Shown here: positions 6,377-23,925 of the stretch, in pieces | Layout: the number at the start of each line of letters is the position of its first letter | Position numbering within the stretch: the stretch's first letter is position 1 | DNA from: a virus | Virus record (IMG/VR): IMGVR_UViG_3300029797_000019 | Coordinates: 1-24,948 of that record | DNA length: 24,948 nucleotides | Reading direction: 5' to 3' (one strand) | Position numbers and translations under genes: made by a program | Notes under the pieces: generated by a model | Told to the model about the DNA's origin: nothing | The model's input: only the letters and a program-made list of their open reading frames with translations | Database searches by the model: none

Positions 6377-6694
6377 TTATTTATCTCCTTCCTTCCGTTT
6401 TGGATACGGCCCATGTTCAACCAGGCCACTCTCAATATCTGATTTCCATTGATTAGCAATAGCCACAAGCGCACCTGGCATTTTTGCGAATAAATCAAAC
6501 CCGGACCCGGCCTGCAATGATTCAGGGTCAATCAATTCTTTGGCCCAATGCGTTACCTTGTCGAATTCGCTGTAAAGATCCAGACACAGGATATCAAAGT
6601 CATGATCCGACATAACCGAAAAGTCTTTTTCGTAATAAAGATATGACGCACAAAGATATTTAACGCAATTTTGATTTGGAATTGAACATTTCAT
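6377..6694 (-). CDS. DNA ligase LigA-related (domain Ia-like) protein
   Basis: The 105-residue protein contains YLYYEKDFSVMSDHDFDILC at residues 18-37 and AKELIDPESLQAGSGFDL further on. The YY...D-x2-MSD-x-x-FD pattern is that of domain Ia of NAD-dependent DNA ligases, which binds the nicotinamide mononucleotide half of NAD. No adenylation core is attached, so it is not a ligase alone. Free-standing copies are common in phages, with unknown role. It follows a structured element in its 5' region. Confidence 0.68.
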   Translation of the reverse strand: MKCSIPNQNCVKYLCASYLYYEKDFSVMSDHDFDILCLDLYSEFDKVTHWAKELIDPESLQAGSGFDLFAKMPGALVAIANQWKSDIESGLVEHGPYPKRKEGDK

Positions 6695-6731
6695 AAAGCC
6701 TCCCTGTAAACTTCCCTGATTTTGGGTGAGA

Positions 6732-6780
6732 GTGGGAAGACCGGTCAGGGTTCCGGTGTTCGGGAGCTACCCTATCCCAC
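6732..6780 (-). ncRNA. Putative structured RNA element, copy 1 (three-helix junction)
   Basis: Helices in plus coordinates: P1 6732-6737/6775-6780 (GTGGGA/TCCCAC), P2 6740-6744/6753-6757 (ACCGG/CCGGT), P3 6762-6764/6770-6772 (GGG/CCC). The junction strands are GTTC (6758-6761) and TA (6773-6774). A second element at 9165-9214 has the same layout with compensatory base changes. It lies between the SF2 helicase stop and the LigA-related start, so it would be in the mRNA leader of the latter. The strand is inferred from the genes. No known RNA class is recognised. Confidence 0.6.
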
Positions 6781-6812
6781 ACTTGAAAATATACAAAATT
6801 ATCTATTCAAAT

Positions 6813-8447
6813 TCAAGCACTTTCTACAACTTTCCCACAAGCCTTGCACTCAATCGTCCCGGTAACAAGTTTTGTCGTCTGTGCGCAACCACAAGCCGGG
6901 CATGAAACGGCCTTTTGCTTCCCGAGTTTGTCTTTCGCTTTTGCATATTTGACATTTTGGTGCTGGATGTATTTCAACACCTCAACGCCTGTCTTTTCTT
7001 TCGCTTTCCAGTCCATCCTGGATGACGGCTGACAGCCGAACTTTTCGCTGTATTTCATCAGCGCCCAGCCGAAACAACCTGCCCGGCCTTTTTTGTAGCC
7101 TTTGTTTTCTGCGTATTGATTGAGTTGCGCTAAAAACGATTGCTTTTCCTGCGTTGAATAGTTTTTTGCTTCTTTCCTTGTGAGCTTTTTAAGTTCGCCT
7201 TCTTCGGTTTCGATAGGTTCGATGTGTTTTGCAACGAATCCGCAGGCCGGGCATACGTGGACGCCTGCGGGTTTGAGATAGTCGCAGGACGGGCAGACTT
7301 TCGGAAGTTTTTCTTTTTTTTCTTTCTTTTTGTTTTTCGATTCGCCCTTTTTTCCGTCGTCTAACTCGTCAATGACATACTCATCCGGGAACCCCAAACG
7401 AGAGAGATTAGAGCCGTGATCCAAAACAATTGCCCGTTCTTTCCCAGGGAACAATCTTAACGAACGGCCGATCGCCTGAGTAAGCTTTATCATCGATTTT
7501 GTGGCCGTTGCCAATATTACGCATTCAACATCAGGGACATCAAATCCAGTAGTAGCAATGGCAACAGAAATCAAAACCTTGAATTTATCGTTTCTGAAAT
7601 CTTCGATTAACTTCCTTACACTACCTTCCCCTTCCTTGGGGAGATAAGCGTTTATTTCACAAGCACTTATACCGTTACGCTGAAACTCTTTCTCAAGCGA
7701 CCTGCTATGTGGAACATTGACGGAAAAAACAATGGTCTTTTTATTGTTCGCCTTCTCTCTCCAAGTTTGGACAATATCTGCAACCAGTTTCGGTTTATCG
7801 GCTGCTTTTCCAAGACCATTTTGATCATACTCACCACACTTGGTTTTAACTTTGGATAAATCTATTTGCGAAGGACCATAGGCATCATAGTCGCAAAGCA
7901 AGCCCTTATCAATAAGATGACGAACGGTAAACGGCTGAATATGTGTCTCGTATATCTTACCTAAAGCCTTTGAATATGGGCTGGCAGTTAGTCCTAAAAT
8001 AAAAGCGTCAGGATTGGCATCAAACGCCTTTAATGACCCTTTGTGTATGACATGGGCCTCATCCTGAATTATGACATCGTATTGTCCCACATGCCTACGA
8101 ACAAGAGTAGCAGCACTTGCAATCTGAACGGCACGATTCGGAAAGTATTTGGGGTTGTCTGCCTGGACGATCCCGTGACTGATACCCCACCGATCGAATG
8201 ATTTAGACGTTTGATTCACCAGTACTATGCGGTCTGCTATGAATAAGCATCTTTTGCCTTTTTCGACAGCATTTTGAATAATCTTTGCTGCAAGAGCTGT
8301 TTTACCTGCTGCGGTCGCTGCCTGGAGTATCAGCCGCCTTGAATGTCTGAACGCAGCTCTGACCTCGTTTAGCATTTCTTCCTGGATGGGCCGTAAGACA
8401 AGCTTCTCAATCTGTCTTGGGGGGTCGAATAAATTGCCACCAAACAT
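6813..8447 (-). CDS. Superfamily 2 DEAH-type helicase with two zinc ribbons
   Basis: The 544-residue protein has Walker A TAAGKT (45-50), DEAH (about 130), LTASPYSK, and motif VI QAIGRSLR (about 327). These define a UvsW/RecG-like or type III res-like SF2 helicase that uses ATP to unwind or remodel branched DNA. After a lysine-rich linker come one ribbon (CPSC...CPAC, about 383-400) and, at the C-terminus, another (CPAC...CKAC, about 517-535). Its ATG overlaps the AP2/HNH endonuclease stop by one base (TAATG). Confidence 0.9.
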   Translation of the reverse strand: MFGGNLFDPPRQIEKLVLRPIQEEMLNEVRAAFRHSRRLILQAATAAGKTALAAKIIQNAVEKGKRCLFIADRIVLVNQTSKSFDRWGISHGIVQADNPKYFPNRAVQIASAATLVRRHVGQYDVIIQDEAHVIHKGSLKAFDANPDAFILGLTASPYSKALGKIYETHIQPFTVRHLIDKGLLCDYDAYGPSQIDLSKVKTKCGEYDQNGLGKAADKPKLVADIVQTWREKANNKKTIVFSVNVPHSRSLEKEFQRNGISACEINAYLPKEGEGSVRKLIEDFRNDKFKVLISVAIATTGFDVPDVECVILATATKSMIKLTQAIGRSLRLFPGKERAIVLDHGSNLSRLGFPDEYVIDELDDGKKGESKNKKKEKKEKLPKVCPSCDYLKPAGVHVCPACGFVAKHIEPIETEEGELKKLTRKEAKNYSTQEKQSFLAQLNQYAENKGYKKGRAGCFGWALMKYSEKFGCQPSSRMDWKAKEKTGVEVLKYIQHQNVKYAKAKDKLGKQKAVSCPACGCAQTTKLVTGTIECKACGKVVESA

Positions 8448-8998
8448 TATATCAACCCCCGTTCTTTCAAAAACAAAAATGCAGACGATGAACTATCACA
8501 TTCAGGGAAATTATATTTCTTCTCTGCCTCCCATCTTGCAATCACTGCTTCTTTTTTTTTATTAAAATATCCAAGGCCTATATGTTTTCCTAAAACATGA
8601 ACAGAGGCAGTCCATTTTCTACGATTTGTATAATAACTAACACCAGTTACCCCAGAAGTGTTGTCTGTTCGGACTCCGCAATTACGAGAATTACACTGCC
8701 TGGAGACATGCCTTAAATTACACCATCTGTTATCTGAACGATCACGGTTGATGTGGTCAATATCATGCTCTGGAAAATATCCTTCCATCCACAACCAAAC
8801 AAGCCGAGCAGATTGATAATTCTTACCATGAACCATAATAACACGATACCCATGGCTATTTATATAACCAGCAACCGAATCTACAGCGACACGATTCGAA
8901 TTGGTTTTTATCCAAGTGAACACACCAGTTGCAGGGTTGTAATCAAGCAGTTCTTTCAGTCTTCCCTGTGTTAATTTTCCTTCTTTTGAAGTCCTCAT
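8447..8998 (-). CDS. AP2/HNH homing endonuclease
   Basis: The 183-residue protein starts MRTSKEGKLTQGRLKELLDY and has an HNH core (DIDHINRDRSDNRWCNLRH, about residues 80-98). It is followed by an AP2 DNA-binding domain (SGVTGVSYYTNRRKWTASV, then YFNKKKEAVIARWEAE). This is the usual architecture of free-standing HNH homing endonucleases that copy themselves into related phages. I chose ATG 8998, with AGGAG eight bases before it. It overlaps the RHH gene by 56 bases and the helicase start by one base. Confidence 0.88.
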   Translation of the reverse strand: MRTSKEGKLTQGRLKELLDYNPATGVFTWIKTNSNRVAVDSVAGYINSHGYRVIMVHGKNYQSARLVWLWMEGYFPEHDIDHINRDRSDNRWCNLRHVSRQCNSRNCGVRTDNTSGVTGVSYYTNRRKWTASVHVLGKHIGLGYFNKKKEAVIARWEAEKKYNFPECDSSSSAFLFLKERGLI

Positions 8999-9107
8999 CA
9001 ATCATTCTCCTAATGCAGTCCGACACGCTTCTTCCTTCACGCTCGGCTATCTCTTTAAGAATTAACATTTGCCTTTCTGGTAATCTAATCCCAAATGGTT
9101 TTTTCAT
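8943..9107 (-). CDS. Ribbon-helix-helix regulator (Arc/CopG-like)
   Basis: A frame of 54 residues begins MKKPFGIRLPERQMLILKEI and continues AEREGRSVSDCIRRMIDEDF, the strand-helix-helix plan of Arc-type repressors. The last 18 codons overlap the endonuclease gene in another frame, and the tail (RRKINTGKTERTA) is probably not conserved. A good sigma70 promoter lies directly upstream. It may control itself and the helicase genes downstream. Confidence 0.72.
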   Translation of the reverse strand: MKKPFGIRLPERQMLILKEIAEREGRSVSDCIRRMIDEDFKRRKINTGKTERTA

Positions 9108-9143: not shown

Positions 9144-9164
9144 CACAATCGTTACTTAAAAACA

Positions 9165-9214
9165 GCTGGAAGCCGGGCAGGAAGTCCGGCGTTCGGCCCG
9201 TCGGCCTATCCAGC
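9165..9214 (-). ncRNA. Putative structured RNA element, copy 2 (three-helix junction)
   Basis: Helices in plus coordinates: P1 9165-9170/9209-9214 (GCTGGA/TCCAGC), P2 9172-9176/9186-9190 (GCCGG/CCGGC), P3 9195-9198/9203-9206 (GGCC/GGCC). GTTC (9191-9194) and TA (9207-9208) link the helices, exactly as in copy 1. Both P2 loops contain CAGG. On the minus strand it lies after the stop of the gene at 9229 and is followed by TGTTTTTAAG, so here it could also act as a terminator. No known class is recognised. Confidence 0.6.
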
Positions 9215-9228
9215 GTATAATATGGAAA

Positions 9229-11323: not shown

Positions 11324-11560
11324 TTACATAGAATCTAACTTATATTTCTGCTGCAACACTCGGGCCTGGTTGAAATGCCCCGGCAACTTCGCAGCATTAT
11401 CCGGGAATTTAAGACGCAAAATAATCTTTCTGCCTGTGCTGATACTGAACCTTTCTGCTTGTTCAATGTTTTCCCAGGCCCGGACAGGTGGATTGATATA
11501 ACCGCCGGATTGAGCGTATTTGCGCAACTTATTTGTCGTGCAAACGTGATATACTATCAT
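11324..11560 (-). CDS. Conserved small phage protein, possibly ADP-ribosyltransferase-like
   Basis: The ATG at 11560 follows GAGGAGGTACTC and overlaps the primase stop (ATGA). The 78-residue product starts MIVYHVCTTNKLRKYAQSGG and ends QQKYKLDSM. The N-terminal YHVCTT and the GRKIILRLKFP strand recall the small ART/KptA-like fold (YHGTT at the NAD site), but the catalytic residues are not secure. An upstream in-frame extension is only a shadow of the primase gene. Confidence 0.65.
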   Translation of the reverse strand: MIVYHVCTTNKLRKYAQSGGYINPPVRAWENIEQAERFSISTGRKIILRLKFPDNAAKLPGHFNQARVLQQKYKLDSM

Positions 11561-12552
11561 GAGTACCTCCTCACTGATTTTAAAACGGCTTCGGCCTCCC
11601 GGACAGACACCGGCGGACAGCAAGCCGCCGCCTCTTTGTGTATTTCGCTCTCCATCTCCTGCCATGACAGCCCCCTGTGAAGCATCCCGCAGGCACGCTT
11701 GAAAAGGTGATTATTCCGCTCTCCCTCCGACGCCCCATACTGACCTTTAAACTTACCTTCAATTTTAAAATCATTTTGCTTGTATTTCGGTGCGCTCCAT
11801 TGTTCCCGAGGTACCGGTGGGAACATTTCTATCAGCGTCTTGAAGTCATATTTTTTTTTAGACGTGAATATCACCCGGGTCATGTACGGCTCATGCTTTT
11901 TGTGATAGAAGCCTGGGACCCGCATTACCCTGGGAAGATCCTTCACTATCGGATCAGAATTGAATTGTGCGGCGATGCTTTCCTGAACTTGCGTGAATCC
12001 TTCAAGCATGAACATTTCATCATCTACTATCCAGTACACATGAAATTTCCATGGTGACGACTCAACGACAATCGACGGATCATATTCCCATGCCGGATAA
12101 AGCGGAGCCCCGTCAAGATCAGCAAAAACAGCACGAACTTTGATTATATCGTCAGCTTTTCGCCCGTGCCTGTTAGTTTCGTTTACACACATATAGACAC
12201 CAGCACCTTCCTCATTCAAAGCATTTAAACATTTTAGAGTGTCGTTATACTCGTTTTCGTTGCAATGCTTTATTTTCGCTAATTTTGAGTTTTTCCGTTC
12301 GCTGTCATCGTCGAACGTCTGAAATGTTTTAAGTCCCGGGAAGAATGACAAAAACTTTTTAACGTCGTTGAAGCGTTTCCGTTTGAAATGCGTGTCATTG
12401 TTATTTTCAATTGTGCGCATTTTTTCAACAAGACTTATCAATTCCGGTAGCTTATTAATCCGGTCGCCATATGGTCCTGCTTGTTCTCCACCGTCGATAT
12501 AATCCGCCATGTCTTGCGCTTTTTCCCAAAGTGCTTTATATTCTTCATTCAT
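11557..12552 (-). CDS. RepB-like DNA primase
   Basis: The 331-residue protein has VRAVFADLDGAP around residues 142-153 and SPWKFHVYWIVDD near 168-180. It then has VKDLPRVMRVPGFYHKK, the pattern of the RepB-type primase catalytic domain in which the DLD acidic residues bind metal. The C-terminus (NNHLFKRACGMLHRGLSWQE) resembles the primase C-terminal PriCT-type helix. It probably primes phage DNA replication with the helicases nearby. AAGGAAAAAAC precedes the ATG. Confidence 0.82.
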   Translation of the reverse strand: MNEEYKALWEKAQDMADYIDGGEQAGPYGDRINKLPELISLVEKMRTIENNNDTHFKRKRFNDVKKFLSFFPGLKTFQTFDDDSERKNSKLAKIKHCNENEYNDTLKCLNALNEEGAGVYMCVNETNRHGRKADDIIKVRAVFADLDGAPLYPAWEYDPSIVVESSPWKFHVYWIVDDEMFMLEGFTQVQESIAAQFNSDPIVKDLPRVMRVPGFYHKKHEPYMTRVIFTSKKKYDFKTLIEMFPPVPREQWSAPKYKQNDFKIEGKFKGQYGASEGERNNHLFKRACGMLHRGLSWQEMESEIHKEAAACCPPVSVREAEAVLKSVRRYS

Positions 12553-13006: not shown

Positions 13007-13360
13007 CTATGTGTTTTTGTGACTCCAACCAATTAATTCTTTTAACCCTAAACAAACCGGCACATCTTGATCAAACGCAAATTCTATTTCCTTTTTCGTT
13101 CCTATTGAATTCTCCCAACCTGGCATAACCATCATTACGTCTGACCTCTTCAAAAATTCAAGCGAATAACGATAAAACTCTTCAACGCTGAAAACATCGT
13201 CTGGATTGTCTGTTATAAAAGTCCTGTCGTGCCACGGGCAAAATGGAGCAAATCCAAGCTTAAATAATTTTGCACACATCTTTTGACCACGGCCTATATT
13301 TTTCAACACATCGACTACATTATTTGCCGAAAATGGACCCGCTACGTAAACTACTATCAT
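13007..13360 (-). CDS. DUF4406 / nucleoside deoxyribosyltransferase-like protein
   Basis: The 117-residue protein begins MIVVYVAGPFSANNVVDVLK and has FAPFCPWHDR, a serine-containing VMPGWENSIGTKKEIEFA, then VPVCLG. This is the Rossmann-like pattern of DUF4406 and nucleoside 2-deoxyribosyltransferases (YVAGP..., D-x-x-M...S-x-GTxxE). It may act on phage or host nucleotides. It overlaps the homing endonuclease gene by four bases and is followed by a strong terminator. Confidence 0.8.
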   Translation of the reverse strand: MIVVYVAGPFSANNVVDVLKNIGRGQKMCAKLFKLGFAPFCPWHDRTFITDNPDDVFSVEEFYRYSLEFLKRSDVMMVMPGWENSIGTKKEIEFAFDQDVPVCLGLKELIGWSHKNT

Positions 13361-14067
13361 TTTGACTCCTCATTGATAAAGTCATTATTAATATTATCAT
13401 TGCTATGGACCCACCTGTGACAGTTGACACACAACAAAATTAAATTATCAATATCTGTTCGATGCTGTTTTTCTGTAAATGGTATTATGTGGTGAATATG
13501 AAATGTTGGTTTTGATTTGTCATGCTTTAGGCCGCATCTCTGACAAGTTTTCCCGCATTTTTCCCAAACCTTTCCAATAACTGAACGCCACTCAAGGCTG
13601 TTATATAAACAAGCTCTTTCACATGTAACACCTCCTTTCCAATTTGGATTTATCGAGCCATCACAATGTAGCCAATGCTTGCCATTTTTAAGGTATGGTC
13701 TTTTGCCTTTACTGGTTTTTGATATTTTGGCTTTGGTTTCGTCAGTATGTTTTATACCAAGCCTTAATTTATGACCTTTTTTGAACCAAGCGTTTTTATT
13801 CTGCCCACGTTTTCTTTTTTTTATTCCGTAATCCTTAGCCCACAGCCAAGCGGTTTTGGGGTCAACTCCTATTTCGTTCGCAATATCAGAAAAAGATCTT
13901 TCTTTATCTACATATTCTTGTTGAAACCATTCTTTTGTAAACCCTTTATCGTGCCTGTCTTTTAGTTTTTGCAAGTTTTTGCAAAGCTTAGAACAAAAAT
14001 GTCTGCTGTTTTTATTTACAGAACGCCTGTCAAATGTTTTTTTGCAATATTCGCATGTAATTTTCAT
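13357..14067 (-). CDS. HNH homing endonuclease with NUMOD3 motif
   Basis: The 236-residue protein has an N-terminal zinc site (CEYCKKTF, HFCSKLC), an HTH (SFSDIANEIGVDPKTAWLWA, about 59-78), and a NUMOD3 DNA-binding motif (KHTDETKAKISKTSKGKRP). The HNH domain follows (CQRCG, FHIHHIIPF, NLILLCVNCHRWVHS). The order is typical of free-standing homing endonucleases. The start has no clear ribosome binding site and follows a long hairpin at 14075-14125, a setting seen for other phage endonuclease genes. It has probably inserted between the methylase fusion and the DUF4406 gene. Confidence 0.9.
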   Translation of the reverse strand: MKITCEYCKKTFDRRSVNKNSRHFCSKLCKNLQKLKDRHDKGFTKEWFQQEYVDKERSFSDIANEIGVDPKTAWLWAKDYGIKKRKRGQNKNAWFKKGHKLRLGIKHTDETKAKISKTSKGKRPYLKNGKHWLHCDGSINPNWKGGVTCERACLYNSLEWRSVIGKVWEKCGKTCQRCGLKHDKSKPTFHIHHIIPFTEKQHRTDIDNLILLCVNCHRWVHSNDNINNDFINEESK

Positions 14068-14129: not shown

Positions 14130-16628
14130 TCAACAGGCTTTAGCTTCCATTAGGTCAAACAAAGTAGGGCAATTCTTATCTCGTTCTATTGCTTCAAGAT
14201 ATTTTACGCCATCAAGAAAAGAATCTATGTTCAACTCAACAGCTCTGCCACGTCGTCCTAACTTCAAAGCCCTATTCGGAACTGTCATTAAACCCCCGAA
14301 TGGATCAAAAACAAGTTCACCTGGCATTGAATATCTATTTATAAGCCTGTCTACTATCCCAAATTGCAAAGGGCACGTGTGTAGACTTAATTGTCTCCTG
14401 GTTTGATCACCATTTAATGTCAACATTCTGTTTATGTCTGTCCATACGTCGTCTGCATTGCTCTCTGGAGCTATCGCCATGAAAGTTGATGGTAGCCTGC
14501 CATATTCAACATCAAGCTTAGTCCCAAATTTAACATGATGTTCATAGTCATATATATTTTCAAGACTATGCTTTTTAAAAATGTCCAACATCTCTTTAGG
14601 CGTTAATTTTGAAATTGCATCAGCATCAAGTAACTTGTTCCCAGAATCTCTCCAAAAGGCATGTGCATCAATTTGCCATTGTGCCCTTGTATAATCTTCC
14701 TTTGTTTTTTCAACTCTTACGTCAGCATATGCCTTTGACCTGTCTGTTTGTGGTTTTCTGAACAACAGAATATATTCAGGAGAACCGACGCCCATTTTAG
14801 TGGCGTCTTTACATTGCTCTGTCCATCCAAGGCGGTAAGTTTGGTTGTTTTCTCTTACAACGTCTGTAACCACAGTTATCATTCCAAGATAATCAAAACC
14901 ATGTTTTATGGAGTGCATGGTTGCTTCCATGTGGAATGGTGAAACAGTCGGCACCCCTTTCCCTGTAACATTGCCAAAATTAATACCGTCCTTAGTATGG
15001 CAAGCGTATATTCGGCCAGGGTTGAGTATTCTTAGAAGATTTGGAGTTAAAAAATCCATTTGTTCCCAAAAATGGTCGTTATTTTTAGTGTGCCCAAAAT
15101 CATTATAAGACGCAGAATATTCATACAAATTTGAAAAAGGTATGCTTGTTATTATCAGATCGACTGAATTTTCATCCATCATTTTAGTTTCTTCTACACA
15201 ATCATTATGAGCGACCAAAAAGTTTTTTCCTGTGATTTCAATTCTTTTTTCCACTCCGATAGTCCTCTTGAGTTCGTTTAATTTTTCATTGTTTGAAAGG
15301 CCATATTTTTTAATGATATCGGTCATTTTCTTAACCATGACATCGTGCCGTTTCCATTTTTTTTTCAATACTTCTAAAATACCGATTTCGGAAGAAGCGT
15401 AAATGATATGAATATGGCATTCTTTTGTTTGCAAGAACCGATATACCCGGTGAAGACTTTGAATAAAATCATTGAACTTAAACCCTATACCAAGAAAAAT
15501 TGAGTTATTACAGTGCCTTTGAAAATTACACCCCGACCCCGAAAGTATTGGTTTTGTCGCAAGATATTTAAATTCACCGTTTGAAAAATCAATAACCCGC
15601 TGTTCCCTGGTATCTAAATCCTGGGAACCGTAAACATCCTTGACCCCGGGCAAAGCTTTTTTTATCGCGTGGCGCTCAACCTCTTGGTCATGCCACACAA
15701 TAAAATGGTCGTCAGGATCGGCGTTGATAATTTCGGTCATCTTTGCGATTCTGTTGTCGAGGGAATTGCGCTTCTCTTGGCTCGCTGCTTGCAATGACAT
15801 AGCAGCATCCCCAAACATTAATGATTGTCCGTCCCTCTTATCAATCCTATCTATGTCCCCGGCCATAACTTCGTGATAATGAACGTGGAGCTTTGGTAAT
15901 ATATATCCATCGTCCGGGTATCCGAGATCGCTCGGTTTTTGCAGGAAAATAGCCCATGACGATATCCACAACCAAAATTCCTTTTCCATATGCGGATGAA
16001 TTTGCAAGTTACCTGCCTTTGAAGAATCGCGTTTAAAGAAACGGGTGAGAGCCTGCCCGGTATCCATAACACCAAGAAACCCAGCATAATGTATCAACTC
16101 CTTGTAACGATTCGGCGATGGCGTAGCAGTGGCAACAAACCGATATTTAACGCCCTGGAATATGCTTAAAAACGTCTGGAACGTCTTTGACCCATAAGAC
16201 CGCAATACGCTTGCTTCATCCAGTGATACCCCATTAAATTCGTTCACATCGAGGCGGCCATCTCTAATAGATTCGTAATTTGTTATATATATTCCATCGC
16301 CGTCAAGTTCTTCCGTGTGCCGGATAAAATTTATTTCAATATTAAGCTTTTCAGCGTCTATTTTAAACTCTTGCCTGACACCAAGGGGCGCTATTATTAG
16401 CTGTTTTCCGCCTTCCTTTTTACCTATAATACGTAAGCATTCGAGCTGCATAAAAGACTTTCCAAGTCCAAACGAGGCAAATATAGCCCGGCATCCTCCA
16501 TCGATAGCCCACTTTACGATGTCCTTCTGATGTGGCTTTAACATCGAATTTATATCGTTATCATCTATTGTGAATCCTGACTTTGAGCTTATAGCAACTT
16601 TGTTTTTCAAAAAATCATTATAATCCAT
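14130..16628 (-). CDS. SF2 helicase-DNA methyltransferase fusion
   Basis: The 832-residue protein fuses two enzymes. Residues 1-430 form an SNF2/DEAD-like helicase with Walker A GLGKS (54-58), motif II LDEAS (about 136), ATATPSP (about 166) and motif VI SLHRVYR (about 391). Residues 470-832 form a beta-class DNA methyltransferase with catalytic motif SIPF (about 494) ahead of the SAM-binding FDPFGG (about 775). Usual catalytic motifs are DPPY or SPPY, so SIPF is atypical. It may move along phage DNA and modify bases to evade host restriction. AAAGGA precedes the start. Confidence 0.85.
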   Translation of the reverse strand: MDYNDFLKNKVAISSKSGFTIDDNDINSMLKPHQKDIVKWAIDGGCRAIFASFGLGKSFMQLECLRIIGKKEGGKQLIIAPLGVRQEFKIDAEKLNIEINFIRHTEELDGDGIYITNYESIRDGRLDVNEFNGVSLDEASVLRSYGSKTFQTFLSIFQGVKYRFVATATPSPNRYKELIHYAGFLGVMDTGQALTRFFKRDSSKAGNLQIHPHMEKEFWLWISSWAIFLQKPSDLGYPDDGYILPKLHVHYHEVMAGDIDRIDKRDGQSLMFGDAAMSLQAASQEKRNSLDNRIAKMTEIINADPDDHFIVWHDQEVERHAIKKALPGVKDVYGSQDLDTREQRVIDFSNGEFKYLATKPILSGSGCNFQRHCNNSIFLGIGFKFNDFIQSLHRVYRFLQTKECHIHIIYASSEIGILEVLKKKWKRHDVMVKKMTDIIKKYGLSNNEKLNELKRTIGVEKRIEITGKNFLVAHNDCVEETKMMDENSVDLIITSIPFSNLYEYSASYNDFGHTKNNDHFWEQMDFLTPNLLRILNPGRIYACHTKDGINFGNVTGKGVPTVSPFHMEATMHSIKHGFDYLGMITVVTDVVRENNQTYRLGWTEQCKDATKMGVGSPEYILLFRKPQTDRSKAYADVRVEKTKEDYTRAQWQIDAHAFWRDSGNKLLDADAISKLTPKEMLDIFKKHSLENIYDYEHHVKFGTKLDVEYGRLPSTFMAIAPESNADDVWTDINRMLTLNGDQTRRQLSLHTCPLQFGIVDRLINRYSMPGELVFDPFGGLMTVPNRALKLGRRGRAVELNIDSFLDGVKYLEAIERDKNCPTLFDLMEAKAC

Positions 16629-20648: not shown

Positions 20649-21530
20649 TTAAAAAGGCGGCACGGACTGCTCCTGGGCGGCCATTGCCTCAGCCCGTTCG
20701 TTGGCCTCAATCTCTGCCTTTTCGGCATCGGTCATACCGTCCGGACCGGGAACGTTTTTTGGTTCCGGTTCTGGTTCTTCGACATGATTTGAGTGGGCTT
20801 TTTCCTGTGGAGTGATATCAATATATTCCTGGTTGGCGTTGGCGTTGATCTCCTCCTGTACCATGGCGTCATGTCCCTTGAAATCGGCAGTATCAGAACT
20901 CAAGGCACTGGTCATTTCGATAGAAAGGGGCCCATACTTGGAAATAAGGCTTTTAAGCAGGGTCTTTTTCGCCATAGCGTCAAAATCAGATTTCCATGGA
21001 CTTGAGGACGAATTGAACGCCTTGGAGAACTTCTTGCCATGGGCCGTGACCTGTTCTTTGGTCCAGAAAATTGCCTTTTCAAAACCGTTGACCAGTTCCA
21101 TATATGCAAAGTATCCGACCACAATATCCGACGTTGGATTTCCGGCAACTTCCATTGTGCCCCGGATTTTATCAACAAGTATCTCTTCACCTTCGTAGAC
21201 AGCATCGGCGTTCAGGTGCTTGTACTGGCCTGTCCTTATTGCCAGTTGGATGAACCCTTTATACCCGACCTGAAAACTCGGCTTGTTGCCGTATGGGATG
21301 ATATATGCAAAACCCAGGTTGTTATTGATCGGAAGGTCCAGGGCCGGGGCTTTGATAGCCTCTTTTACAACAAGGTTTGGATCGCATTTTTGCAGGGCGG
21401 TGTTGTCCCCGATGAGATCTAAAAGGGAGGTGGTGAACACCCCGGCTTTTTCCCCGATACGCTGCTGAATCATCGCCTGCATACCGCCCCCTGTAATTGT
21501 TTTTCTGATTGCTGGTAAATTGTTTGACAT
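20649..21530 (-). CDS. recT: RecT single-strand annealing protein
   Basis: The 293-residue protein is a RecT/Redbeta-type annealing protein. Typical segments are CDPNLVVKEAIKAPALDLPI (about 48-67), IPYGNKPSFQVGYKGFIQLA (about 78-97) and FDAMAKKTLLKSLISKYG. RecT coats single-stranded DNA and anneals it to complementary strands. The C-terminus is a long acidic linker rich in Pro/Glu that ends SVPPF, like an SSB-type tip. It sits between a small gene and the MBL-fold gene. Confidence 0.95.
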   Translation of the reverse strand: MSNNLPAIRKTITGGGMQAMIQQRIGEKAGVFTTSLLDLIGDNTALQKCDPNLVVKEAIKAPALDLPINNNLGFAYIIPYGNKPSFQVGYKGFIQLAIRTGQYKHLNADAVYEGEEILVDKIRGTMEVAGNPTSDIVVGYFAYMELVNGFEKAIFWTKEQVTAHGKKFSKAFNSSSSPWKSDFDAMAKKTLLKSLISKYGPLSIEMTSALSSDTADFKGHDAMVQEEINANANQEYIDITPQEKAHSNHVEEPEPEPKNVPGPDGMTDAEKAEIEANERAEAMAAQEQSVPPF

Positions 21531-21531
21531 T

Positions 21532-21780
21532 TTATTTTTCTCCTATTGGTTTGTTTATAAAGTCCTCACATTCTGCAACTGTGCCGACAGGAACCACCTT
21601 ACAGATGGTAATTTTGCCATATCGATGCATCCTTTTGCCTTGCTTAACAGCGTTGAGTAAATTTGCGCTATCAGTATATGTCTCCATAATAATAGAGCCT
21701 CTTGATCGCATGTGGTCAAAATGGTCATGTTCAGAACGGACAACAAAAATATCTTTAAATGGATCGATATCTTTTAACAT
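21532..21780 (-). CDS. Hypothetical 82-residue protein
   Basis: The product begins MLKDIDPFKDIFVVRSEHDH and ends FINKPIGEK. It overlaps the ATPase stop by one base (TAATG) and lies between the ATPase and recT, so it belongs to the recombination block. It is beta/alpha in flavour, with no recognised family or active site. Confidence 0.65.
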   Translation of the reverse strand: MLKDIDPFKDIFVVRSEHDHFDHMRSRGSIIMETYTDSANLLNAVKQGKRMHRYGKITICKVVPVGTVAECEDFINKPIGEK

Positions 21781-23708
21781 TATGACGCCTCCCGGATTTC
21801 AGTTGGATTCCATGTAATGGTTTCGTAGTCAGGGTTGACAGATAAAGAAATAACCTGAGAACAAACATCTATTAAGTCCGTAACACTTTCTCGGTTGTCC
21901 ACCCATACAGGGCCACTAAAATTGAAATGCTCAGACAACGTCTGAATGATATCCAGACCTACATTGACCCTGGCGGCACTATTCAAAGCTCGGTCATATG
22001 GCACACCCTGATAAAGGATTTCGCACACCTCTTTAAGTCCTCCATTTATCTGTGTTTCAAACAGTTTAAACCGAGCCAGCTTAAACCGGGAATTGATTGC
22101 ATCTTCCAACATTTCTACTTTGCGGACAATAAACAGGTCAGTGAGGTATAGTTCTTTTTCGAGGGCCTCATACTCAGCCGCCAGGGCTTTCTCCTGGGCT
22201 TCAAGATCCGTGATCCTGCCCCGGGCCTTTCCAGCCGCCTTGTGTTCAGCCTCCTGTTTTTTCCAGTCATCAATTTGTCCATGGTACTCACTGATCCTTT
22301 CAATTATATCTTTTTCACGGATGCCGGTTCCGTTAAGTAAGCCATCAATTTTGCTTTCCAAGGCGTCTTTTTGCTTTTCCAGGGCTTCGGTATCGGCATG
22401 GGAAAATTCAATGCCGGACAGCTCTTTTTGCTTATCTGATATAGCCATGTCCAAGCCATTGATTGCGTCGTCAATGGCTTGGATTTCAACTCTTGTTTTG
22501 GATAGCTCTTTTTCTCGCTGTTCAATGCCCGCTGAAAGCTGCTTGCCCTCTTTGTTTATTTCTTTGATGCGATCTGCTTTAGCCACATTAAATTTGCTGA
22601 CAGCCGAATCAATTTGTTCTTGTGGGAGATCCTGCCCGCAGGTGGGGCAAACGGTGTTGTTTTTTGGCGTTTTGGCATTTTCGTGATGCCATCTTTCCCT
22701 CACGGACTCAACGGCCTCTTTGGATATCTCCTGGCGTCTTTCCTCTGTTTCGACACGATCTTTCAACACCTCAAGCTCGTTGTTTTTCTGGCGTTTTTCG
22801 GCTTCCAGGGTATCAATCTCTGACAATAATCCCTTTTTATTGTTTCTGTTTTGCTCATCAGCACGGGCATGATCTTTGATGATGGCCGCGTTGATTTCGT
22901 TCAATTCTACCCGGGCGGCTGAAATGGCTTCGTTGTTCTGGTTCTGCCGCAGGTTTTCCTGTTCGTCCGCCAGTTTTTTATCAAGGATATCTTTCTCTTT
23001 CTGATTAGGCGCGGCGGCATCCTTCACCATCTCCTGATTTTCTGCGATCCGGGCCGGGATTTCTTTTAATTTCTCATTGATTTTTTTCTGGCTGGCCTTG
23101 ACTTTGGCCCGGTGATTATCCACGGATACCCCGTTAAGGATTGATGTCAAAGGATATAATTTGGCGTCTGACTCAACGACGTCCTGGTCGGACACATCTC
23201 CGCACATTTCAAGCAGCATATCCCGCCTGGCTTGCCAGTGCAGGTTTGCAAATTCAAAAGGGCTTGTGACAAGCTTAAACGCATTGATATCAATCAGTTC
23301 ACCAATGCGCTGATCGTAATCTTTCTTTTTGACCTGCACCCCGCCAATAAAATGTTCCGTGGTGTGTCCGGTGAACTCTTGCGCGGCTTTACCCCTGGGA
23401 GCGGTCCACTTCTCTTTATATATCTTCATCAGCGTTACGGCAGTGCCATCTACGTCCAGGACAGCCTCTACTTCTGTTTCAAGCTTGTGGATTTCCTGTC
23501 CGTCAGCTGAAACGGGTTTCAGCTGGAAGTCGGCCTTGCCCTGGGAGTCTTTGCCGAACAGAAGATAATAAAAGGCATCCTGAATTGTTGTTTTGCCGGA
23601 TGCGTTTTTGCCAAAGATGCTTATGTCCTGTCCTTCCGGCTTAAGGGATAAGTCTGTCACTCCCTTGAAGTTTTTTAACCTTAAATATTGAATTGTTACT
23701 GTTTTCAT
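21780..23708 (-). CDS. SMC/Rad50-like AAA ATPase
   Basis: The 642-residue protein begins MKTVTIQYLRLKNFKG and has Walker A GKNASGKTT (33-41). A long coiled coil is interrupted by a CPTC zinc-hook motif near residue 354, then the signature-like NSAARVNVGLDI (about 576-587) and the Walker B-like PVWVDNRESV (about 600). This is the RecF/SbcC/Rad50 layout: two ATPase lobes joined by a hooked coiled coil. It probably handles DNA ends with RecT and the nuclease. I chose ATG 23708 because AAGGAGAAAGG precedes it. Confidence 0.9.
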   Translation of the reverse strand: MKTVTIQYLRLKNFKGVTDLSLKPEGQDISIFGKNASGKTTIQDAFYYLLFGKDSQGKADFQLKPVSADGQEIHKLETEVEAVLDVDGTAVTLMKIYKEKWTAPRGKAAQEFTGHTTEHFIGGVQVKKKDYDQRIGELIDINAFKLVTSPFEFANLHWQARRDMLLEMCGDVSDQDVVESDAKLYPLTSILNGVSVDNHRAKVKASQKKINEKLKEIPARIAENQEMVKDAAAPNQKEKDILDKKLADEQENLRQNQNNEAISAARVELNEINAAIIKDHARADEQNRNNKKGLLSEIDTLEAEKRQKNNELEVLKDRVETEERRQEISKEAVESVRERWHHENAKTPKNNTVCPTCGQDLPQEQIDSAVSKFNVAKADRIKEINKEGKQLSAGIEQREKELSKTRVEIQAIDDAINGLDMAISDKQKELSGIEFSHADTEALEKQKDALESKIDGLLNGTGIREKDIIERISEYHGQIDDWKKQEAEHKAAGKARGRITDLEAQEKALAAEYEALEKELYLTDLFIVRKVEMLEDAINSRFKLARFKLFETQINGGLKEVCEILYQGVPYDRALNSAARVNVGLDIIQTLSEHFNFSGPVWVDNRESVTDLIDVCSQVISLSVNPDYETITWNPTEIREAS

Positions 23709-23721
23709 TCCTTTCTCCTTG

Positions 23722-23925
23722 TTAAATTTCGATTTCAACCGTCCGTCTGACATCTCCGTCAGAGCCTACATACCTACGAAACCGGATAAACTTTTTAGTC
23801 CCGAAAATTAAATCAAATTTTGCCCGGTACTTCCGACATCCCTCTGCATGTCGCGGTAGGCTGTGTGTGCATTTTGCGTTTGGCCAGAATCGCTTATTTT
23901 CTTTGATACATGTATCAATATTCAT
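23722..23925 (-). CDS. Hypothetical small protein with CHC-type residues
   Basis: The 67-residue product begins MNIDTCIKENKRFWPNAKCT and has three cysteines and two histidines in its first half (C, C-x-H, H-x-x-x-C), a possible zinc site. The second half is basic and beta-rich (FIRFRRYVGSDGDVRRTVEI). A GTG at 23937 in the same frame is another possible start, with AGGAGA upstream. No family is recognised. Confidence 0.6.
   Translation of the reverse strand: MNIDTCIKENKRFWPNAKCTHSLPRHAEGCRKYRAKFDLIFGTKKFIRFRRYVGSDGDVRRTVEIEI

Follow-up and report, generated by a model that had tools for sequence, protein, structure and literature searches.

int-alpA RNAs as putative 5′ translation leaders that join a three-way junction, a pseudoknot and a Shine-Dalgarno hairpin

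With a probability that we place at roughly 0.7, the int-alpA RNA of phages and integrase-linked islands is a 5′ leader that displays the ribosome-binding site of the gene behind it. The parts of this model that sequence comparison establishes are the family membership of two elements in a viral DNA, the complementarity of the two strands of a pseudoknot, a fourth hairpin (P4), the placement of the Shine-Dalgarno (SD) sequence and the start codon, and the difference between one of the two elements and its counterpart in the relative L005.

Two int-alpA RNAs in a viral DNA window

The window, by which we mean the whole stretch of 24,948 bases analysed here from an IMG/VR virus record, was searched with the covariance models of all 4227 Rfam families. 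Exactly two matches in the whole window, each to int-alpA (RF02996) on the minus strand, exceeded the gathering score: copy 1 at 9216-9149 (42.2 bits, E 9.2e-6) and copy 2 at 6782-6714 (38.8 bits, E 7.1e-5), with a cut-off of 35.8 and each match spanning the full model length, 1-71. An initial annotation had described elements at 6732-6780 and 9165-9214, and the helices, linkers and CAGG loops that it listed are all present; its view that they belong to no described RNA class gave way in the comparison with Rfam, where RF02996 accounts for both copies, an outcome that the annotation had itself named as refuting. Judged by these matches, the window elements are two members of the known int-alpA RNA family and not a new RNA class, and in that sense they are ordinary. 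Read on the minus strand, linkers GTTC and TA become GAAC and UA, and the CAGG loops become CCUG; the helices earlier called P2 and P3 are P3 and P2 of the Rfam model, because helix order reverses on the opposite strand. The three-way junction P1-P2-P3 of the family, with linkers UA, GAAAA or GAAC, and CU, is found in the covariance-model alignments and in 32 aligned relatives. Helices of copy 1 lie at 9214-9209/9170-9165 (P1), 9206-9203/9198-9195 (P2) and 9190-9186/9176-9172 (P3), and those of the predicted fold of copy 2 at 6780-6775/6737-6732, 6772-6770/6764-6762 and 6757-6753/6744-6740, respectively.

The int-alpA RNA was reportedly described by Weinberg et al. in 2017 as a motif from comparative genomics. 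It is widespread and functionally orphan, and the comparison presented here supplies a concrete, testable function. The window copies resemble the Rfam entry in the three-helix junction, the linkers and a 3′ U-rich tail with terminal AGGG; they depart from it in that the entry is of type ‘Gene; sRNA’ with a covariance model that contains no pseudoknot, whereas the copies precede a ligase-like gene and a ribbon-helix-helix (RHH)-HNH module. The int/alpA neighbourhood that gave the family its name, and that the model does not require, is not found at the window copies, whose neighbours among the ORFs searched are Nlig-Ia-like, helicase, HNH and RHH genes. A literature search on int-alpA and RF02996 found no published function among the papers covered; the one paper that it returned, PMC12370729, names int-alpA in a list of predicted RNAs.

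About 140 relatives were collected in two sets, and the pseudoknot, P4 and the start codon played no part in their selection. The first set came from three DNA-pattern scans (two viral, one genomic) together with protein searches; filtering on P1, P2/junction and P3 only gave 99 non-redundant elements, and removal of 10 doubtful or edge entries left 89 for the start-codon and promoter tests. The search pattern itself fixes part of P2 and the junction, and the conservation of those bases in the first set is in part a consequence of the selection. The independent set holds 49 elements that the Rfam model found in whole genomes from two bacterial orders, with the pattern unused. Viral relatives scored above the Rfam cut-off in 36 of the 36 records tested. 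Matches to int-alpA occur in 181 of 5426 complete E. coli genomes and in 82 of 151 sampled genomes of one bacterial order, with up to 6 copies each. Two groups of pattern matches were rejected. An apparent array with a 150-bp spacing in L071, L072 and L108 is a coding-like repeat matched by chance and not int-alpA; its repeats, at multiples of 150 bp (GAGATGAACGG...CCTAGGCCGAGTTGGCCGAA), resemble coding repeats of a repetitive protein. Matches such as L195, L237, L245, L253 and L262 did not pass the P1/P3 filter; they contain another short repeat, AGTAACTAGCCCGAAGGGCGAAGTAACT, which recurs across different genomes and is unrelated to int-alpA.

In the alignment of 32 relatives, 94.3% of the cells in the three helices are paired, as compared to 65.7% after shuffling, with 135 cells changed on both sides versus 41, and a covariation score of 0.697 versus 0.160 (at most 0.129 when the partners are slid). 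Together with the RF02996 matches, these statistics bear out the initial proposal that a conserved three-helix junction with compensatory changes marks a functional RNA. The support comes from comparison of sequences and not from folding energy: the minimum-free-energy z-score is -2.09 for copy 1 and -0.54 for copy 2, uninformative for the latter, so that energy alone would miss the signal. The P2 hairpin variant of copy 2, GGGUAGCUCCC, recurs exactly in the int-alpA members L304 and L334 and is thus a recurring P2 subtype.

We also considered whether the element acts at the level of DNA, as a site of recombination, attachment or homing or as a mobile repeat; the apparent helices would then be inverted repeats. 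Integrase genes often adjoin the element (29 of 79 upstream ORFs), it is located before homing-type endonucleases, and genomes carry several copies; yet the compensatory changes in the stems and in the pseudoknot described below preserve pairing and not sequence, the orientation and the distance to the SD and ATG are fixed, and the alignments inspected by reading contain no target-site duplication or flanking repeat. We regard this reading as very improbable. A folded single-stranded DNA site, which the initial annotation had allowed as an alternative to RNA, is likewise disfavoured because the promoter, SD sequence and start codon all share one strand, on which they are aligned with the element.

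A pseudoknot and an SD hairpin 3′ of the junction

In nearly every member of the family, the loop of P3 is complementary to a strand shortly 3′ of P1, with pairs that include CCCUUG/CAAGGG, CACUCAA/UUGAGUG, CACCGA/UCGGUG and ACUCGUA/UACGAGU. Variable spacer lengths kept a multiple alignment from bringing the pseudoknot strands into register, and in place of pair counts, complementarity was assessed without an alignment, by comparison with exchanged partners. In the 99 relatives of the first set, which hold 55 distinct pseudoknot strands, mean complementarity was 5.78 for the true partners, 4.21 for exchanged partners (with 4.45 as the highest of 200 exchanges) and 4.16 when the downstream sequence was shuffled; a complementarity of at least 5 was reached in 85% versus 29%. 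The 49 independent elements behaved similarly, at 5.96 versus 4.68 for exchanged partners (maximum 5.04 in 300). The conserved CCuU in the P3 loop of the Rfam model and its terminal AgGG can be read as the two pseudoknot strands, and the CAGG shared by both window loops is part of the 5′ strand as seen from the other strand. This pseudoknot may already be drawn in the int-alpA source paper.

Downstream of the pseudoknot, the start codon typically lies 25-45 nt after P1. An ATG with an SD sequence and an ORF of at least 45 codons was present within 110 nt in 80 of the 89 elements of the first set (background 19%) and in 32 of the 49 independent elements (background 18%). Leaders also possess a hairpin, P4, at this site: hairpin scores of at least 5 were obtained for 46% of leaders and, among the remaining SD-ATG starts of these loci, for 15% (p 2e-13), and the SD overlaps P4 in 66 of 67. 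Spacing is tight, with a median gap of 1 nt between pseudoknot and P4 and of 2 nt between P4 and the start codon. The predicted probability that the SD is unpaired is 0.59, as compared to 0.37 for control starts, from a calculation in which the pseudoknot cannot be represented. In E. coli 64.1, E. coli D5, the Klebsiella plasmid pKpvST101_3 and the Klebsiella phage P12620-1, the annotated CDS start, placed by independent annotators, is exactly the predicted ATG. Binding of CsrA/RsmA at a GGA motif in P4 was considered and rejected, as many P4 loops have no GGA.

A -10-like hexamer (at least 5/6) is located just upstream of P1 in 25-36% of loci, relative to a background of 2-6%, and the signal at 4/6 or better is present in only about half; this enrichment would place the transcript start near P1 in many members. 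In about half of loci, P1 directly adjoins the stop codon of an upstream ORF, in many cases an integrase, and transcription by read-through from an upstream promoter is therefore possible for some copies, too. In about 60% of the first set, the 8 nt that follow P1 include at least 4 T.

The -10-like hexamer and the U-rich tail, the latter also present in window copy 1, are what one would expect of a free-standing, trans-acting sRNA that has its own promoter and ends at P1 and the U-run, in keeping with the Rfam type; copy 1 even holds a terminator-like match at 9175-9163, from a scan that performs no better than shuffles. An sRNA would leave unaccounted for the SD and ATG that follow at a fixed short distance far more often than chance, and the pseudoknot partner and P4, which are located 3′ of the U-run and coincide in part with the ribosome-binding site. 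The T count at this position stays below 4 in about 40% of the first set, and the conserved pairing inside the leader requires no trans target. We therefore hold the sRNA to be unlikely. Somewhat less likely still is a transcription attenuator, in which P1 and the U-run would terminate transcription and a broken P1 or pseudoknot would let RNA polymerase enter the gene. Many members do have a GC-rich 8-bp P1 followed by a U-rich tract with the pseudoknot strand directly after it, but many others are without a U-run (e.g. GGCGCGGC-ACCCAATCAAGGG), P1 closes a multi-branched junction and not a simple hairpin, and P4 with its SD points to translation. On the start-codon and pseudoknot evidence, the sRNA, the attenuator and the DNA element each appear weaker than the leader. 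Several points count against the leader as well: the U-rich tract after P1 would also suit a weak terminator, the -10 signal is confined to about half of loci, a nested fold of copy 2 pairs the SD with P2, and copy 1 has no SD hairpin and a pseudoknot of only 4 bp.

Taken together, a structural model for the int-alpA leader can be put forward. A promoter would start the transcript at or near P1; P1, P2 and P3 would fold into the three-way junction, and the P3 loop would pair with the strand just 3′ of P1 to form the pseudoknot. P4 begins 0-2 nt after the pseudoknot, on which it is probably stacked; the SD is located within its loop or adjacent to it, and 1-4 nt separate the hairpin from the start codon. 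Through this fold, the core would fix and display the ribosome-binding site and insulate it from the very different coding sequences downstream. Regulation, if there is any, would work through formation or disruption of the pseudoknot/P4 stack, possibly with the help of a trans-acting factor and with an effect of either sign. We lean, by a modest measure, toward a wider form of the leader model, in which int-alpA serves temperate phages, satellites and integrase-linked islands as a translation leader that is general-purpose and transferable; its junction and previously unmodelled pseudoknot would hold the SD hairpin for whichever accessory gene comes next, and it would act as a shared switch for several operons of one element.

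The two window copies and their counterparts

Copy 2 (6714-6782, minus strand) is probably the core of a complete leader. A promoter-like site precedes it at 6788-6816, with TTGAAT (6816-6811), a 17-nt spacer and TATATT (6793-6788); site and spacing are conserved in L005, and the assignment is a consensus match only, in a region with 7 promoter-like sites versus 6.7 expected by shuffling. The predicted start of the transcript, at about 6781, coincides with the first P1 pair. The pseudoknot 5′ strand CCCUGA in the P3 loop (6745-6750) is complementary to the 3′ strand UCAGGG (6714-6719), and both strands are conserved in L005. P4, AAGUUU(ACAGGG)AGGCUU, follows at 6696-6713 with the SD AGGGAGG at 6705-6699, and RNAfold forms the hairpin in L005. 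Directly 3′ of it, the ATG at 6694 opens a gene (6377-6694, minus strand) for a 105-aa protein with an N-terminal DNA-ligase-like (Nlig-Ia) domain (Pfam PF22745, E 1.3e-10) that is 90% identical in L005. Promoter-like site, junction, pseudoknot, P4, SD and ATG are all conserved in L005, and we read 6782-6690 as the complete leader of the gene at 6694; the functional element extends past the three helices first outlined, to about 6690. In the minimum-free-energy fold of copy 2 without the pseudoknot, the SD pairs with P2, a competing structure by which the leader could be off by default.

Copy 1 (9149-9216, minus strand) presents a different picture. The -10-like TATTAT just before it (9217-9222, minus strand), which is common to L005, has no convincing -35 in the sequence. 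For its loop UCCUGC (9182-9177), neither GCAGG nor CAGGA occurs in about 140 nt downstream; the pseudoknot amounts to 4 bp at most, and the window sequence 3′ of the copy lacks the SD hairpin that is present in L005. An intact version of this leader is found at 6165-6260 of L005, where the core is 91% identical over 70 nt and continues ...CCAGCGUAUUUUUUAGCAGGAUAGCAACAGGAGGCUAAAUG, which comprises the pseudoknot UCCUGC/GCAGGA, P4 UAGC/GCUA, the SD and the helicase ATG. The window diverges from L005 right after P1, and an RHH-like ORF and an HNH endonuclease precede the helicase. The former (8943-9107, minus strand; 54 aa, MKKPFGIRLPERQ...), which was called RHH by eye, has a homologue in L003 at 74% DNA identity, and a promoter-like TTGACA-17-GAAAAT lies ahead of it at 9142-9114; this ORF falls under the usual ORF size limit and overlaps the HNH frame. 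The HNH_3 endonuclease ORF (8447-9001, minus strand; Pfam PF13392, E 2.2e-11) has an uncertain start codon. The same RHH-HNH-helicase order occurs in L003, in whose record the Rfam search gave no int-alpA match. The window helicase (ResIII/Helicase_C; 6813-8447, minus strand) is a mosaic, its C-terminal part nearly identical to L005 and its N-terminal half strongly diverged, which is consistent with recombination with an L003-like module.

The simplest reading of this arrangement is that an RHH-HNH-helicase module became attached by recombination to the 5′ half of an old leader. Copy 1 is probably the orphan core of a former helicase leader, because the recombined module took away its pseudoknot strand, P4 and SD. 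L005 and the window would then constitute a natural experiment on the loss of the pseudoknot and the ribosome-binding half from a leader. The initial annotation had placed both elements in gaps of the helicase/HNH part of the window; that location stands, and the reasons for the gaps differ, as copy 2 would be the leader of the next gene (6694-6377) and copy 1 the remnant of a helicase leader split by the RHH-HNH module.

Downstream genes and known systems

Given the leader model, the genes that follow int-alpA are of interest. The downstream proteins are mostly unknown; they fall into 57 clusters among 85 proteins, and none was found to be a conserved partner. A dedicated regulator is therefore not suggested, nor is a cognate ligand, the downstream genes being too varied. 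In E. coli, the context beside yicC reads integrase, RNA, hypothetical gene and helix-turn-helix regulator.

Translational leaders that act in cis and place a pseudoknot beside the ribosome-binding site are familiar from riboswitches and ribosomal-protein leaders. The int-alpA leader shares with them a 5′ structured domain, a loop-to-downstream pseudoknot and an SD hairpin immediately after it. Unlike them, it precedes 57 unrelated protein clusters, with no ligand known, and neither metabolite feedback nor autoregulation by one protein would therefore fit. Structured leaders also control the translation of phage homing endonucleases, for instance the ribosome-binding-site hairpins of T4 endonuclease genes. 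Here the likeness lies in the HNH, GIY-YIG or endonuclease VII-type genes that follow at least 13 of 57 viral int-alpA leaders, L094 being counted among them by its clustering with L055. The T4 hairpins are simple and gene-specific, in contrast to int-alpA, which is a conserved multi-helix RNA that also occurs in integrase-linked islands.

Should int-alpA indeed be a leader and not an sRNA, the search for its role would shift from unknown targets to the gene directly downstream, and its likely class would be corrected accordingly. It would also offer a handle on how phages and islands time their accessory genes, homing endonucleases among them. L068 has two int-alpA copies, one of them before an HNH gene, and its record G023 has three, which makes it a candidate for shared control of several operons. 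Elsewhere in the window are a RepB-type primase (11557-12552), a second HNH endonuclease ORF (13357-14067), a methylase/SNF2 fusion (14130-16628), a RecT-like gene (20649-21530) and an SbcC-like gene (21780-23753).
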